Shown here piece by piece: positions 35,128-61,183 of a DNA stretch of 64,000 nucleotides. Location of the stretch: assembly GCF_021631985.1 (NCBI RefSeq), contig NZ_CP070225.1, forward strand, positions 9,486,001-9,550,000. Reading direction: 5' to 3'. The position numbers were made by a program, and so were the translations under genes. Source of the stretch: Sandaracinus amylolyticus. GTDB taxonomy: Bacteria; Myxococcota_A; Polyangia; Polyangiales; Sandaracinaceae. Position 1 is the first letter of the stretch. Every line of letters begins with the position of its first letter. The notes beneath the pieces are model-generated. The model saw only the letters and a list, made by a program, of their open reading frames with translations, was not told the origin of the DNA and did not search any database.

Positions 35128-35210
35128 GAATCGGCTCGCCGCTCCGGTCCCTTCCGTCCGCGCGCGCCGCGCGCTTCCGTCCGGGCCCTCCGGGACGAGC
35201 ACTCAGGCAA
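35128..35210 (-). repeat. Dispersed inverted-repeat element, copy 1
   Basis: From ATCGGCTCGCC to GACGAGCACTC this segment matches copies at 36880, 36943, 50317 and 61092. This copy is the most diverged in its middle (CGCGCGCGCCGCGCGC region). It fills the gap between two convergent gene ends. See copy 4 for the structure. Confidence 0.8.
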
Positions 35211-35942
35211 TCAGTCGCCGAAGCGCACGACGTACGAGTACACCGCGCGGCCGCGCTGGCCGCGCACCACCATCTCGACCGCGGCGCGCTCCACGCACTG
35301 GCGCATCGCGGTGTCGAAGCCGCCCGCGCCGCCCTCGATCTGCGCGCTGCCGACGCGCCCGCCATCGCTCGCGGTGAAGGTCAGCGTGACCTCGGCGCTG
35401 CGATGCGCGGCGCGATCGAGGTACTGGTCGTAACAGACCGCGAGGCGCGATCCGATCGTGCGCATCGCCGCGCGCACGTTCTCGTCGGGCGCCTGGCCCG
35501 ATCCGTCGACGCGCTCGCCGCGCATGACGCGCACCGACGGCGCGAGCTGGGTGCCGCTCTCGATCTCGTGCACCGTGCCGCGATCGGTCGCGAGCGAGTC
35601 GTGCGCGGGGTCGGCGGTGGTCTCGGTGACGGTGCCGTCGACGTGGACCGGGATCGGATGGCGCTCGATGCAGTGCCGCACCTGCTGTGCGTGGGCCCGG
35701 ATGCGATCGACGACCGCGGTGATCGACGCGACCGCGTCGCGCCGCACGTCGTCGGCCACGCCGGGCGCGCGCGAGCGGGTCTCGGCCTGCTCGAGGAGGT
35801 GCATCAGGCGCTGCACCTGCTCGTCGTGCTCGCGCAGGCACTGCGCGACGGTGCGCGCGTTCGCCGCAGGGTCCTGCGCGTGGGCGGTGGTCGCGAGCGA
35901 CGACAACGAGAGCGCGAGACCGAGAAGGAAGGCGGTGCGCAT
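35211..35942 (-). CDS. Secreted AgmX/PglI-type C-terminal domain protein
   Basis: A 243-residue exported protein with a Sec signal peptide ending TTAHAQ. The central region is helical (HDEQVQRLMHLLEQAETRS). The last 95 residues follow the AgmX/PglI C-terminal (TonB-like) pattern: IGSRLAVCYDQYLDRAAHRS, VTLTFTASDGGRVGSAQIEG and a final MRQCVERAAVEM with the two Cys expected. In myxobacteria such domains occur in gliding and polysaccharide proteins, but the role of stand-alone ones is unknown. A paralogous architecture is divergent, 136 bp upstream. Confidence 0.8.
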   Translation of the reverse strand: MRTAFLLGLALSLSSLATTAHAQDPAANARTVAQCLREHDEQVQRLMHLLEQAETRSRAPGVADDVRRDAVASITAVVDRIRAHAQQVRHCIERHPIPVHVDGTVTETTADPAHDSLATDRGTVHEIESGTQLAPSVRVMRGERVDGSGQAPDENVRAAMRTIGSRLAVCYDQYLDRAAHRSAEVTLTFTASDGGRVGSAQIEGGAGGFDTAMRQCVERAAVEMVVRGQRGRAVYSYVVRFGD

Positions 35943-36078: not shown

Positions 36079-36858
36079 ATGCAGCGACGAATCATCCCCA
36101 TCGTGGTGATCTCTCTCGCGATCTTCGCCCCCATCGGCGCGGCTCACGCCCAAGGGACCGCCGCGTCGCCCGGTCCGGCGACGGGCATCCCACGCACCGC
36201 GTCGGGCGCCGCGGTCGGGTACGAGATGAGCGGTGCATCGATCCCGCAGTCGCAGCTGGACGAGCTGCCCGATCGCGTGACCGAGGCGCTCGCGTCGTGC
36301 GCGAGCGAGGCGGCGCCGCTGATCGGACGCCCGGTGAACGCGGTGCTCACGGTGTCGCCGCCGGGACGGGTGACCGAGGTCCGCTTCGACGGCGACCCGC
36401 GTCCCGACGAGCAGAACGCACGCGCGTGCGTGCAGCGCGCGCTGAGCGGGCTGCGCTTCGCGTCGCGAGCGCGCCCCACGACGCTCACGCTCGAGCTCGC
36501 GTTCCGCGAGCAGCGCGGAGGCGGCCGGAGCGGCGGTGGCGCGGCGGCGGCCGATCCTCGCACCGCGGCCTATCGCGAGTCGGTGGTGCGCGCGATCGAG
36601 TCGCACCAGCCCGCGGTGCACGCGTGCTTCGAGCGCTCGCGTCGTGCGTTCGAGTCCCCGGAGCGACAGCTGCGCGTCGAGCTGACGATCCAGGCCGACG
36701 GACGGGTGCGCGGCGCGGTGCCGGCGGGCGATCTCTTTCCGCAGCTCACGGAGTGCCTGAACCGCGAGATCGGCCGGTGGACGGTGCCGCGCCCGCCGAC
36801 CGCGCCGTTCCCGATGGATCACCGCTTCGACGGGAACGTCGCGGCTTACGGCGAGTGA
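36079..36858 (+). CDS. Secreted protein with two AgmX/PglI-type domains
   Basis: A 259-residue exported protein with signal peptide ending IGAAHAQG. Two tandem units of about 100 residues have the AgmX/PglI pattern: VTEALASCASEAAPLIGRP then VSPPGRVTEVRFDGD, and AIESHQPAVHACFERSRRAF then LTIQADGRVRGAVP. Paired Cys in each unit fit a disulphide. It shares architecture with the divergent gene at 35942, so they may work together in the periplasm. ATG 36079 is used; no strong ribosome site is visible, and GTG 36076 is an alternative. Confidence 0.78.
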   Translation: MQRRIIPIVVISLAIFAPIGAAHAQGTAASPGPATGIPRTASGAAVGYEMSGASIPQSQLDELPDRVTEALASCASEAAPLIGRPVNAVLTVSPPGRVTEVRFDGDPRPDEQNARACVQRALSGLRFASRARPTTLTLELAFREQRGGGRSGGGAAAADPRTAAYRESVVRAIESHQPAVHACFERSRRAFESPERQLRVELTIQADGRVRGAVPAGDLFPQLTECLNREIGRWTVPRPPTAPFPMDHRFDGNVAAYGE

Positions 36859-36879
36859 CGCGCGCTCGACGACCGGCGA

Positions 36880-36940
36880 GAAATCGGCTCGCCCGCCGGT
36901 CCCGACCGTCCGGGACCGTCGGGACGAGCACTCCCGCAAG
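36880..36940 (-). repeat. Dispersed inverted-repeat element, copy 2 (internally deleted)
   Basis: Matches copy 3 at both ends but lacks 23 bp of the centre, exactly the interval between two CCGTCC repeats present in copy 3. This is what a slipped deletion between short direct repeats would leave. It lies in tandem with copy 3. Confidence 0.8.
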
Positions 36941-36942
36941 GG

Positions 36943-37034
36943 CTGTCGAAAGATCGGCTCGCCCGCCGGTCCCTCCCGTCCGCGCGCTTCGCGCGCTCCC
37001 GTCCGGGACCTGCGGGACGAGCACTCCCGCAAGC
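36943..37034 (-). repeat. Dispersed inverted-repeat element, copy 3
   Basis: Full-length copy between a plus-strand gene and the encapsulin gene stop. It contains GGTCCC, GCGCGC-TTC-GCGCGC (wording differs slightly between copies) and GGGACGAGCACTCCCGCAAG. Same orientation as copies 1 and 2. Confidence 0.85.
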
Positions 37035-37036
37035 GT

Positions 37037-37858
37037 TCACTCGATCGTGCAGATCGCGCTCGGCCGCTTGATGCGCAGCGCGAGGCACTCGTAGACGCGG
37101 AACGGATAGTCCTGATCGCGCTCGCCGAGGTACGCGATGGTCAGGTCCTCGGTGACCGCGATGTCGAAGTTCTGATCGCCCGTCGAGAGGAGCACCGCCT
37201 TGCCCTGCGGGATCGTCGGCGTCGTGTACACGCCGTCGTCGCAGAGGCGCAGGATCGAGTCGATCTCGGGCGCGAACTGGCCCTCGAGCTGCTGCACGAG
37301 GCGCGCGTAGTCCTGGGCCGAGACCGCGAGCGCGAACGGACGGTGGTGGTTGCTCTCGAGCAGCACCTCCGTCGCGCGCACCACGTCGCGGTACGCGTTG
37401 CCGTACTTGGTCCAGTCGCTGCGCGCGACCGTCTTGCGACCGCGCGCGTTGAGCAGGCCCTCGATCCCGAGCCGCGGATCGCCGTTGAAGATCAGCGTGT
37501 CCTCGCGATCCGCGACCGCGTGCGCCGCGCGGATGGCGCGCGACGCGTCGAGCGGGGCGCCGAGCTTCTTGCTGAACGAGACGTCGCGCCAGTGCAGGAC
37601 GAAGTCCTTGTAGAGGATCGGCACGCGGAGGATGACCTCGTTCGCGCCGTGGATCGGCTTGGGATCGGTCCGGCTCAGGAACTCGATCTCCGCGTCCTCG
37701 TCGGGACCGTATTGCTCGACCGAGACCGACTCGAGGCCGGCGCCGAGTGGACCGTAGATGCCGAGGAGGCGGCGGCCGACCAATGTGCGGCGCGCTTCAC
37801 GCACGACCTCTTGCTGGAGGAACTCCCACTGCTCGTCGGTGAGCGGGCTCTGGTTCAT
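37037..37858 (-). CDS. Family 1 encapsulin shell protein
   Basis: A 273-residue protein of usual encapsulin length (about 265-290). Diagnostic blocks are LTDEQWEFLQQEVVREARRT, GRRLLGIYGPLGAGLESVSV, SFSKKLGAPLD and LIFNGDPRLGIEGLLNARG. It assembles into HK97-fold icosahedral compartments that enclose proteins bearing a short targeting peptide. ATG 37858 gives the expected N-terminus. Upstream on the same strand are a coiled-coil membrane protein (41 nt gap) and a small protein with two TVGSLR motifs, so the three form a putative nanocompartment operon. Confidence 0.95.
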   Translation of the reverse strand: MNQSPLTDEQWEFLQQEVVREARRTLVGRRLLGIYGPLGAGLESVSVEQYGPDEDAEIEFLSRTDPKPIHGANEVILRVPILYKDFVLHWRDVSFSKKLGAPLDASRAIRAAHAVADREDTLIFNGDPRLGIEGLLNARGRKTVARSDWTKYGNAYRDVVRATEVLLESNHHRPFALAVSAQDYARLVQQLEGQFAPEIDSILRLCDDGVYTTPTIPQGKAVLLSTGDQNFDIAVTEDLTIAYLGERDQDYPFRVYECLALRIKRPSAICTIE

Positions 37859-37898
37859 GGCGCGAGAGTAGACGAACGCGCGCGCCGCTGCAGCGCCG

Positions 37899-38606
37899 TC
37901 AGCGTCGTCCGCGGGGGCCGGGCGCGCCGTCACCGCACTCCGCGGCCATGCCGAGCGCGCGCATGCCGCCTTCGTCCTCGAGCCGGGCCATTCGCTCGGG
38001 GCCGAGCGCGGTCTCGACCTCTTCGCGCATCGGGCGCGTCGCCTCGCGCAGCGCGCGCCGTCCACCGCGCACGCCCGCGTCGCCCTCACCGCCGCCTCCG
38101 GCGCGCCGGTCCTGCCACGCTTGCCGGTACACGTCGCGGATCGCGCAGAGCGTCGGCGTGACCTCGTTCATCGTCGCGTCGTCGATCCCGATCGCGCGCA
38201 ATCGCTCGCGCAGCTCCGCACGGCGTGCCGCCCACTCGGCCTCGCGCCGCGCGCGCTCCTGCTCGACGCGCTCGGTGAGGCGACGCTCGACCTCGGCGTC
38301 GATCGCGCGCGAGACCTCGGGCGACTCGAGCACGACGCGCGCAGGCTCGGGCAGCGTCGCAGGATCGATCGCCGGGCCCTCGGTGCGCGCAGGGCGCAGC
38401 GCGAGCGCGGCCTCGGCCGAGGCGAGGCGATCCTCGCAGGCCTGCAGCGCGGACGGATCGGACTCGAGCGCGAGCGCGTCGTCCTCTTCGGGCTCCTCGC
38501 GATCGCGATCGATCGCCGGGGGAGGCGTGCTCGAGGAGCCGACCGCGTAGCCCGCGACCCCGGCGAGCAGCGCGGCGACGATCGTGATCGCGATGGTGCG
38601 CGCCAC
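37899..38606 (-). CDS. Membrane-anchored coiled-coil protein in encapsulin operon
   Basis: A 235-residue protein with one N-terminal membrane helix (IAITIVAALLAGVAGYAVG), an acidic linker and long charged heptad-like segments (VSRAIDAEVERRLTERVEQE and the next 30 residues). A Gly-rich break precedes a second helix and an Arg-rich tail. No targeting peptide is seen at its C-terminus. It starts 1 nt after the cargo-like gene stop. It may resemble periplasmic Spy/CpxP-like metal-sensing helical proteins in the MREEVETALGPERMARL area, but that is a weak likeness. Role in the compartment system unknown. Confidence 0.75.
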   Translation of the reverse strand: MARTIAITIVAALLAGVAGYAVGSSSTPPPAIDRDREEPEEDDALALESDPSALQACEDRLASAEAALALRPARTEGPAIDPATLPEPARVVLESPEVSRAIDAEVERRLTERVEQERARREAEWAARRAELRERLRAIGIDDATMNEVTPTLCAIRDVYRQAWQDRRAGGGGEGDAGVRGGRRALREATRPMREEVETALGPERMARLEDEGGMRALGMAAECGDGAPGPRGRR

Positions 38607-38607
38607 G

Positions 38608-38949
38608 TTACTTGCGCAGCGAGCCCACGGTCCCGCGCCCGTTGCTCCCGACCGCGCCGCGCTCGACCCGCAGCGAGCCCACCGTCGAGCCCGGGCGCGC
38701 GCTCGCGGCCGAGGCTGCCTCGACGCTCGAGTGCCCCGCCTTCACGCGCGAGAGCGCGGTCTGGAGGCGCGTGTCCTCTTCTTCGAGGAGGTGCTCGACC
38801 AGCGTCTCGAGCGTCGCGGCCGCCATGCCCGAGTCGGCCAGCAGCGTGCGGAGGAGCTGCTGGTGCTCGGGCTTGAGGGACGAGAGGTTCTGGATCGCGA
38901 CCCGCGTCGCGGGGCCGTGCGCGCGCTCTTCGCTCGCCATGCGGCGCAT
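38608..38949 (-). CDS. Candidate encapsulin cargo with tandem targeting peptides
   Basis: A 113-residue protein. Residues 15-70 are predicted helical (LKPEHQQLLRTLLADSG, then LETLVEHLLEEEDTRLQTAL). The C-terminal 26 residues carry STVGSLR (88-94) and GTVGSLRK (106-113), both matching the LTVGSLRR-type targeting peptide known from Myxococcus xanthus encapsulin cargos. No ferritin-like, haemerythrin or peroxidase signature is visible, so the cargo type is not recognised. The Glu/His-rich helix (EHLLEEED) could bind metal. ATG 38949 or 38940 are both possible starts. It is first in the encapsulin operon. Confidence 0.85.
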   Translation of the reverse strand: MRRMASEERAHGPATRVAIQNLSSLKPEHQQLLRTLLADSGMAAATLETLVEHLLEEEDTRLQTALSRVKAGHSSVEAASAASARPGSTVGSLRVERGAVGSNGRGTVGSLRK

Positions 38950-39028
38950 CGTGGGATGTGCCGTCGAAGCCCGTCAAGCGCTCGTCGCGTGAGGTGAGCG
39001 GACGCGGCGCGCGTGTCACGCTCGCCGC

Positions 39029-39916
39029 GTGCGATGGAAGGACGTCGAGGGCGGAGGTCTCGCGATCGAGGTGGACGCGCCTCGCGTGCCCACGCTCTTC
39101 CTCGAGTCGTTCCCAGGCTGGCGCATCCGCTTGATGCGACGAGGTACGCCGGTGTTGTGGGCGCGCATGAAGGGCGCAGCCGAAGGCGTGTGGATCGCGC
39201 GTGCCGAGGGCGCCGCGAGCCCGGGCGTGCTGCCGCCGATCACCGCGCGCGAGGCACGCGCGACGACGCGCATCGAGGACTGGATGCGCTTCGTCGCGCG
39301 CGGGCTCGACGAGAGCGCGGCGTCGCCGCTCCGCGTTGGGCCCTGGCAGCTCACCGAGCTGCGTTCCGTCGGTCGCGACGCGCTCGAACCGATCGACGTC
39401 CATCGTCGACCCTCGAGGGCGCTCGACGTCCGCGCCGTCTTCGACGTCGCGCCGGTGCACTACCTGCGCTGGGGTCTGAACGGTGCACGCACGATCGTCC
39501 CGCTCCGCACGGGCTCCGCGATCGATGCGTCGCGCGTGAAGGCGTGGCGCAAGCACGTGCGCGACGGAACGCTGCCGCCGATCGTGCTCTGGTGGGTGTC
39601 GATGCTCGACGCGTACGTCCTGCTGGACGGGCACGATCGATTGCGCGCGGCGCTCGCGGAAGACGTGCTGCCACGCGCGATCGCGCTGTGGGAGCCGCGC
39701 GGGCGAGCGCGCTGGCGCATGCCGGAGGAAGACGCGGTCCGCGGCTACGAGCGCGCGTTCCGCGCCGAGCACCGGCTTTCGGAGAACTCCCGGCGGACGA
39801 TGACGGCCTTCCTCCTGCGGCACTTCGCGCCCGATCAGGACGTCGCGACCACCGCGCGCGGCCGTCCGAGCCCGGAAGAGTGGAGTGCGTCGTCGCCTAT
39901 CCGTTCATGCGGATGA
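39029..39916 (+). CDS. Hypothetical protein with ParB-like fold signature
   Basis: A 295-residue soluble protein. Near residue 190-215, IVLWWVSMLDAYVLLDGHDR and the following LRAA match the DGHHRLRAA motif of ParB/sulfiredoxin-like domains, which bind nucleotides. The N-terminal 150 residues are not recognised. GTG 39029 is the first start with a sensible N-terminus. It is divergent from the encapsulin operon (79 bp between starts) and ends within a strong hairpin shared with the convergent anti-sigma-like gene. Confidence 0.65.
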   Translation: MRWKDVEGGGLAIEVDAPRVPTLFLESFPGWRIRLMRRGTPVLWARMKGAAEGVWIARAEGAASPGVLPPITAREARATTRIEDWMRFVARGLDESAASPLRVGPWQLTELRSVGRDALEPIDVHRRPSRALDVRAVFDVAPVHYLRWGLNGARTIVPLRTGSAIDASRVKAWRKHVRDGTLPPIVLWWVSMLDAYVLLDGHDRLRAALAEDVLPRAIALWEPRGRARWRMPEEDAVRGYERAFRAEHRLSENSRRTMTAFLLRHFAPDQDVATTARGRPSPEEWSASSPIRSCG

Positions 39917-50316: not shown

Positions 50317-50410
50317 CCTTGCCGGAGTGCTCGTCCCGCAGGTCCCGGACGGGAGCGCGCGAAGCGCGCGGACGGTAGGGACCGGCGGGCGAGCCGATTT
50401 TTTCGACAGT
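50317..50410 (+). repeat. Dispersed inverted-repeat element, copy 4
   Basis: Reads CCTTGCCGGAGTGCTCGTCC at the left end, then GGTCCC, GGACGGGA, GCGCGC-GAA-GCGCGC, GGACGGTA, GGGACC and CGGCGGGCGAGCCGATTTTT. The stems GGTCCC/GGGACC and GCGCGC/GCGCGC enclose a symmetric purine-rich 8x8 internal loop. It lies between the LysR palindromes and the GST ribosome site, opposite in orientation to copies 1-3, and here ends in a T6 run. Confidence 0.88.
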
Positions 50411-61091: not shown

Positions 61092-61183
61092 CTTGCCGGA
61101 GTGCTCGTCCCGCAGGTCCCGGACCGGAGCGCGCAAAGCACGCGGACGGTAGGGACCGGCGGGCGAGCCGATCTTCGACAGTC
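61092..61183 (+). repeat. Dispersed inverted-repeat element, copy 5
   Basis: Near-identical to copy 4 (CTTGCCGGAGTGCTCGTCCC, GGTCCC, GCGCGC-AAA-GCACGC, GGGACC, GGCGGGCGAGCCGATC, TTCGACAGTC). It lies right after the sigma stop and upstream of the second ECF42-type promoter. A few substitutions (GAA to AAA loop, one stem change) show that it has diverged from copy 4. Confidence 0.88.

Follow-up and report, generated by a model that had tools for sequence, protein, structure and literature searches.

A family 1 encapsulin operon

The window analysed here is a 64,000-nucleotide stretch of Sandaracinus amylolyticus DNA (G000:C1:9486001-9550000, from a genome, G000, of 10.96 Mb). Three open reading frames lie on its minus strand within positions 37037-38949, encoding, in order of transcription, a small protein of 110-113 amino acids, a protein of 235 amino acids and an encapsulin shell protein of 273 amino acids, with intergenic gaps of 1 nt between the first two and 40 nt between the last two. 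The features discussed below are:

37037-37858, minus strand: gene for the 273 aa shell protein, an EncA-type family 1 encapsulin (Pfam, NCBIfam and solved-structure matches)
37899-38606, minus strand: 235 aa open reading frame with an N-terminal hydrophobic helix, probably exported and outside the conserved core (list of open reading frames, homologue search, hydropathy)
38608-38949, minus strand: gene of the small cargo, which probably begins at 38940 (110 aa); six homologues, each 5' of an EncA-type shell
38743-38901, minus strand: cargo residues 14-66, predicted to be helical and containing the invariant K23, E25, H26, D36, H50, E53, E54 and E55 (alignment, AlphaFold2)
38668-38685, minus strand: first targeting peptide core TVGSLR, residues 86-91 (motif scan)
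38614-38631, minus strand: second targeting peptide core TVGSLR, residues 104-109 (motif scan)
35191-35211, 36920-36940 and 37013-37033, plus strand: copies of a repeat core (core search)
50318-50338 and 61092-61112, minus strand: copies of the same repeat core (core search)

The shell gene is taken to start at the ATG at 37858, which yields 273 amino acids; the mechanical reading frame begins further upstream. Its product scores 242.9 bits against the NCBIfam family 1 encapsulin model (cut-off 100) and reaches 197.6 bits with Pfam Linocin_M18, whose cut-off is 24.3, placing it in family 1 by the curated cut-offs. The best solved-structure matches are 9fy6, M. xanthus EncA, 6nj8, and the identity to M. 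xanthus EncA is 42% (114 of 271 aligned residues). Judged by these matches, the locus is a family 1, EncA-type encapsulin operon of a known kind, and the claim of an encapsulin operon made by an earlier sequence-only reading of this DNA holds, with a shell above both the Pfam and NCBIfam cut-offs and three genes on one strand. No sigma-70 promoter or terminator pattern was found within 36850-39100. The window also carries a dispersed G+C-rich repeat of ~95 nt with the core CGGGACGAGCACTC, present in five copies versus 0.01 expected (21-base core, 3 mismatches); two of these copies are found a short way 3' of the shell gene.

A small protein in the core-cargo slot

The reading frame of the small protein (38608-38949) spans 113 amino acids, while the internal methionine of MASEER is the start common to the same-genus relative and gives 110 amino acids, the numbering used here. 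Homologues occur in six genomes (289 genomes of the class searched). A profile search of 377 genomes of the phylum recovered five of the six together with one broken-frame match, and a scan of the genome collection returned four, belonging to the four species outside genus g1. The broken-frame match, in G024 (3.9e-4), was rejected as a homologue, the break lying on the reported strand.

In all six genomes the gene shares its strand with an EncA-type shell and lies 5' of it, at a spacing of 69-93 nt in four of them and of 749 nt in the two members of genus g1, where the 235 aa reading frame intervenes. Each of the five genomes of the phylum sample whose shell is at least 71% identical to that of the window carries the cargo. 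Beside ten of the 13 shells at 40-50% identity, the same upstream slot is occupied by an EncB-type ferritin-like protein, one of which (L044), when compared with solved structures, matched EncB at 3.4e-16. As for the other three, one locus is cut at a contig end with a tag still visible (L049), one encodes a protein ending in PLTVGELIGR (L039) and one has no tagged neighbour (L063). In M. xanthus, encB, the core cargo gene, precedes encA, according to the operon description in PMC8229669. Given the constant neighbourhood of cargo and shell, the TVGxLR tag kept in all six homologues, the presence of EncB in the same slot of related loci and the encB-encA order, the small protein almost certainly is the core cargo of this shell.

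The cargo is narrowly distributed and uncharacterised, although it is set in an encapsulin of known kind. No Pfam family reached its cut-off for the cargo, no NCBIfam model matched five cargo members at E 5, and PHROGs gave no match to the cargo or to the 235 aa protein at E 0.01. The earlier remark that the cargo has no ferritin-like or peroxidase motif is consistent with this lack of Pfam or NCBIfam assignment, qualified by the occupation of the slot by EncB in related loci and by a weak, unproven EncB-type likeness described below. In the part of the literature searched, no paper on a Sandaracinus encapsulin cargo was found, and the passages retrieved from a text naming both 'Sandaracin' and 'encapsulin' concern geosmin clusters.

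Several neighbouring observations were made in these related loci. The 148 aa protein of L039 (981-1424, plus strand), upstream of the next-closest shell (50%), is another, unassigned candidate cargo and had no PDB match; it was rejected as a distant relative of the window cargo, since its initial score of 8.4 bits fell to chance level once tag and linker were removed (49 and 72 of 500 shuffles as good). Genome G004 has two EncA-type shells, L040 and L063 (47% and 40% identical to the window shell), with no tagged cargo adjoining the second. Close 3' of EncA-type shells in two f14 genomes lie reading frames with long D/E runs (L041 1171-1488 and L043 1152-1571, both minus strand), which are possibly an acidic partner of the compartment.

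Tandem targeting peptides

Family 1 loading is generally described as using one short tag per cargo protein. The cargo of the window carries TVGSLR twice, at residues 86-91 and 104-109. When its 42-residue tail was shuffled 200,000 times, at least one TVGxLR appeared in 0.029% of the shuffles and two in none. The sequence-only reading had noticed the doubled motif at the end of a 113-residue protein and named its absence from homologues as one result that would refute its reading. TVGxLR is kept in all six homologues, as a tandem with a linker of 12 or 14 residues in four genomes from two Sandaracinaceae genera and as a single tag in the two genomes that belong to another family. Among the 11 tagged cargos beside related shells (the ten ferritin-like proteins and that of the cut L049), no protein has two tags. 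No paper on natural tandem targeting peptides was found in the part of the literature searched, and multi-tag cargos may exist in M. xanthus.

Between the window genome and G001, the two closest genomes, the 12 tag codons differ by no nonsynonymous and two synonymous changes and the 12 linker codons by seven nonsynonymous and three synonymous changes. The ratio of 0/12 to 7/12 nonsynonymous codons suggests, in this small sample, that both copies of the tag are constrained.

The likeness to a Myxococcus-type signal proposed by the earlier reading is borne out, as LTVGSLRR is given in the relevant passages of PMC5959871 as the minimal signal used with M. xanthus EncA. The consensus stated in PMC11202242 places L or F first, two residues before V. 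In the tandem copies the residue leading TVG is S, G, A, G, T, A, T or V, a bulky hydrophobic in none of the eight, whereas 11 of the 14 single tags have L, F or W at this place and the remaining three have R, R and T; the Fisher p value of 0.001 for this difference is descriptive only, because the sequences are related. As the tandem copies have no leading bulky hydrophobic residue, each would be a weak, sub-canonical tag, and the pattern suggests that two weak tags may do the work of one strong tag. Counting against a need for two tags, two of the six homologues are single-tagged and three of the 14 single tags are likewise without a bulky residue.

Predicted fold and likeness to ferritin-like cargos

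AlphaFold2, run with five sequences, predicts for the 85 aa homologue two helices (residues 2-28 and 33-57) and a disordered tail, with most of the helical part at a pLDDT of about 70-75 and an overall pTM of 0.36, while the helical part of the window protein is broken into four helices (pTM 0.42). The cargo is predicted, with moderate confidence, to be a helical hairpin with a flexible tail. The invariant charged residues of the alignment are K23, E25, H26, D36, H50, E53, E54 and E55, and a turn near residues 37-40 puts E25/H26 and H50-E54 at about the same level of this moderate-confidence hairpin, where a metal site could form. The invariant E25, H26, H50 and E53-E55 could bind metal. The EncFtn ferroxidase motif (E plus ExxH) is not found in the cargo: E25 and E55 keep its spacing, and the position of the histidine is not histidine in any of the six sequences.

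By sequence, the cargo matched neither the ferritin-like models of Pfam and NCBIfam nor any ferritin-like cargo in the PDB. In profile comparison with hhalign, the cargo scored 20.8 against EncB-type ferritin-like proteins, a value equalled by one of 150 column shuffles and by none of 150 heptad-preserving shuffles, and 17.2 under another match-state rule. The classical EncFtn profile gave a background score (reached by 101 of 150 shuffles in each control), and EncB and EncFtn pooled gave a score reached by five of 150 shuffles in both controls. Single sequences compared with the EncB model scored weakly, the score of the window protein being reached by 14 and 25 of 500 shuffles and that of one single-tag homologue by 2 and 15 of 500. 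The spacing E-x24-H-x3-EE matches four of the six conserved EncB positions, as do 0.2% of shuffles, and helix 2 alone supplies three of the four.

Foldseek searches with the cargo models gave best E values of 3.2 and 3.7 among the structures compared. In a second look at the top 74 chains for the 85 aa model, EncD (8vjn) aligned over all 52 of its residues with Z 5.5 and rmsd 3.4, EncB over 60 residues with Z 5.3 and rmsd 6.0, and EncC over 64 residues with Z 4.7 and rmsd 7.7; unrelated helical hairpins among the same chains had Z values of 5 to 7.8. A common origin of the cargo with the encapsulin hairpins of EncD, EncB and EncC is plausible and unproven.

Other tagged proteins and possible partners

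The TVGSLR pattern matched 20 times in the window genome versus 14 times in a reversed control, two of the 20 being the cargo's own. Nine of the other 18 matches to this pattern were fetched, and no convincing C-terminal tag was found among them. Two putative frames carry related motifs at or near their ends: one of 76 aa (L101) ends in SVGTLRV, and one of 94 aa (L094) has TVGTLR 10 residues from its end. When three other genomes were scanned for LTVG-type tags with the aim of finding EncD, the EncB-type cargo of G374 was the sole match.

An EncFtn/EncB profile searched against the six cargo genomes gave strong matches only to the EncFtn of a second shell, in G000 and G001, and no tagged EncFtn-type ferritin-like protein was found in the six beyond these. 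Six marginal matches in G001, G186, G234 and G204 (E 0.004-0.09) were set aside as other proteins without a tag-like motif in their last 40 residues. Conventional ferritins (PF00210) are present in five of the six genomes. The second encapsulin system of the window genome lies outside the window, at about 3.685 Mb of G000:C1 (L014 6254-7443, minus strand), and consists of an EncFtn with the tag SLGIGSLR and a shell.

Alternative readings

In one alternative the cargo is a reductase of the EncD kind: a small flavin-binding hairpin that would reduce stored iron and set it free. EncD reportedly folds as a dimer of hairpins, and its alignment over 52 residues to the 85 aa model would fit such a role, but unrelated hairpins in the same set score as well or better and no sequence match to EncD chains was found at E up to 10 with either profile. 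PMC11202242 describes EncD as a ferric reductase inside the encapsulin that binds flavin and depends on NAD(P)H, whereas the cargo proteins of G000 and G186 have no aromatic residue and that of G191 has none in its helical part. Moreover, the window cargo sits in the core-cargo slot, while EncD is encoded elsewhere in M. xanthus, by the account of that genome in PMC8229669. Since no recognised, tagged ferroxidase partner was found in the six cargo genomes for an iron-releasing cargo, a storing, binding or other primary role is favoured, not strongly. We regard a reductase of this kind as unlikely.

A non-catalytic liner or linker, in which an acidic hairpin, fixed to the shell through one tag or two, lends it stability or supplies carboxylates on which mineral can nucleate, would be in keeping with the invariant EEE, with the lack of a complete known catalytic motif and with two tags on a small protein that could link shell sites. 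However, the two invariant histidines, with E25 on the opposite helix, go beyond what a liner needs, and two homologues have a single tag, so that this reading too seems improbable to us.

The 235 aa protein begins at a GTG and has one hydrophobic segment (Kyte-Doolittle 19-mer mean of 2.17 from residue 5, at most 0.69 for starts past residue 30), in agreement with the membrane helix seen by the sequence-only reading, which had suggested that the protein could tether or regulate the compartment. Because the hydrophobic N-terminus follows a single arginine, the positive-inside rule points to export, with the charged body outside the cytosol; the protein is thus probably exported, as judged from its sequence. 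Its gene sits within the operon, and the counterpart in G001, a member of the same genus, is 90% identical, but nothing other than gene position ties the protein to the compartment. It is absent between cargo and shell in four of the six genomes, for which reason we reject its membership of the conserved operon core and find a tether role unsupported. The only match other than itself, among those listed from a search of 144 class genomes, is 32% identical (E 4.7e-5); this plausible distant relative (L139 1495-2019, minus strand, in G006) places it in a wider family of charged helical proteins. With its body predicted outside the cytosol, the tethering or regulating function is very improbable.

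Least credible is an origin of the helical domain in VIT1-type iron transporters, namely in their cytosolic metal-binding domain. Four of five cargo members do hit the Pfam VIT1 model with E values near 0.03, the window protein aligning to profile positions 65-126, but the scores of about 14 bits stay below the PF01988 cut-off of 28.1, and the profile comparison, made with only five sequences from 23 loci after a motif filter, was equalled by 3 and 5 of 150 shuffles.

Interpretation and comparison with known systems

Based on these results, we propose that the locus is an EncA-type operon with a small, unclassified hairpin cargo, which is held by the avidity of weak tags and handles iron or another metal in the place of EncB, a reading to which we assign a probability of roughly 0.5. 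The tags would dock on the inner face of the shell; each tandem copy, lacking a leading bulky hydrophobic residue, would bind weakly, and two copies would restore or raise binding by avidity, perhaps by bridging neighbouring shell subunits. The hairpins may pair up, and the invariant E25/H26 and H50/E53-E55, at about the same level of the hairpin, would bind metal, most likely iron, so that the compartment would handle iron with this cargo instead of EncB. Absence of the ExxH histidine, an EncFtn likeness at background and PF00210 ferritins in five of six genomes count against this reading, and it counts against the metal step that it rests on residue conservation and on a model with a pLDDT of about 70-75 in the helices and a pTM of 0.36. 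For the iron or metal function of the cargo, taken by itself, we see the chances as evenly divided. More tentatively, and on balance doubtfully, we speculate that a metal-binding hairpin without a classical ferroxidase centre forms a new core-cargo class that replaced EncB in one myxobacterial branch, with bivalent anchoring in Sandaracinaceae, where two weak tags bridging shell subunits would constitute a natural avidity code.

If the conserved tandem is indeed one of sub-canonical tags, it would allow the role of avidity in setting loading to be tested in a natural system, a question relevant to the design of nanoreactors. The locus also raises the question of how a shell of the EncA type can function when no ferritin-like cargo is recognisable. 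Cargos of this sort may account for some of the 90 family 1 systems left without an operon type in the 2021 survey, by the figure given in PMC8346489.

The locus shares with the EncA/EncB/EncC/EncD system of M. xanthus an EncA-type shell (42% identity), a core cargo gene upstream of the shell and a TVGSLR-type tag. However, EncB is a ferritin-like ferroxidase, whereas the window cargo is a predicted hairpin that lacks the ExxH histidine and, in four of the six genomes, bears two tags. With EncFtn and EncB in general, the cargo has in common the predicted two-helix hairpin, the disordered tail, the C-terminal tag and E, H, E and E at matching spacing; it differs in that histidine and in the lack of a family-level sequence match. 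EncD is likewise a small tagged cargo of an EncA-type shell with a hairpin of similar size, but profile searches at E up to 10 found no sequence relation between it and the window cargo, which alone of the two occupies the core-operon position. The second encapsulin of the same cell also has a tagged cargo upstream of a family 1 shell, yet that cargo is a classical EncFtn with the tag SLGIGSLR, and the two shells are 26% identical. This low identity, together with the different tags, suggests separate cargo codes, and we infer that each tag matches its own shell in the window genome.
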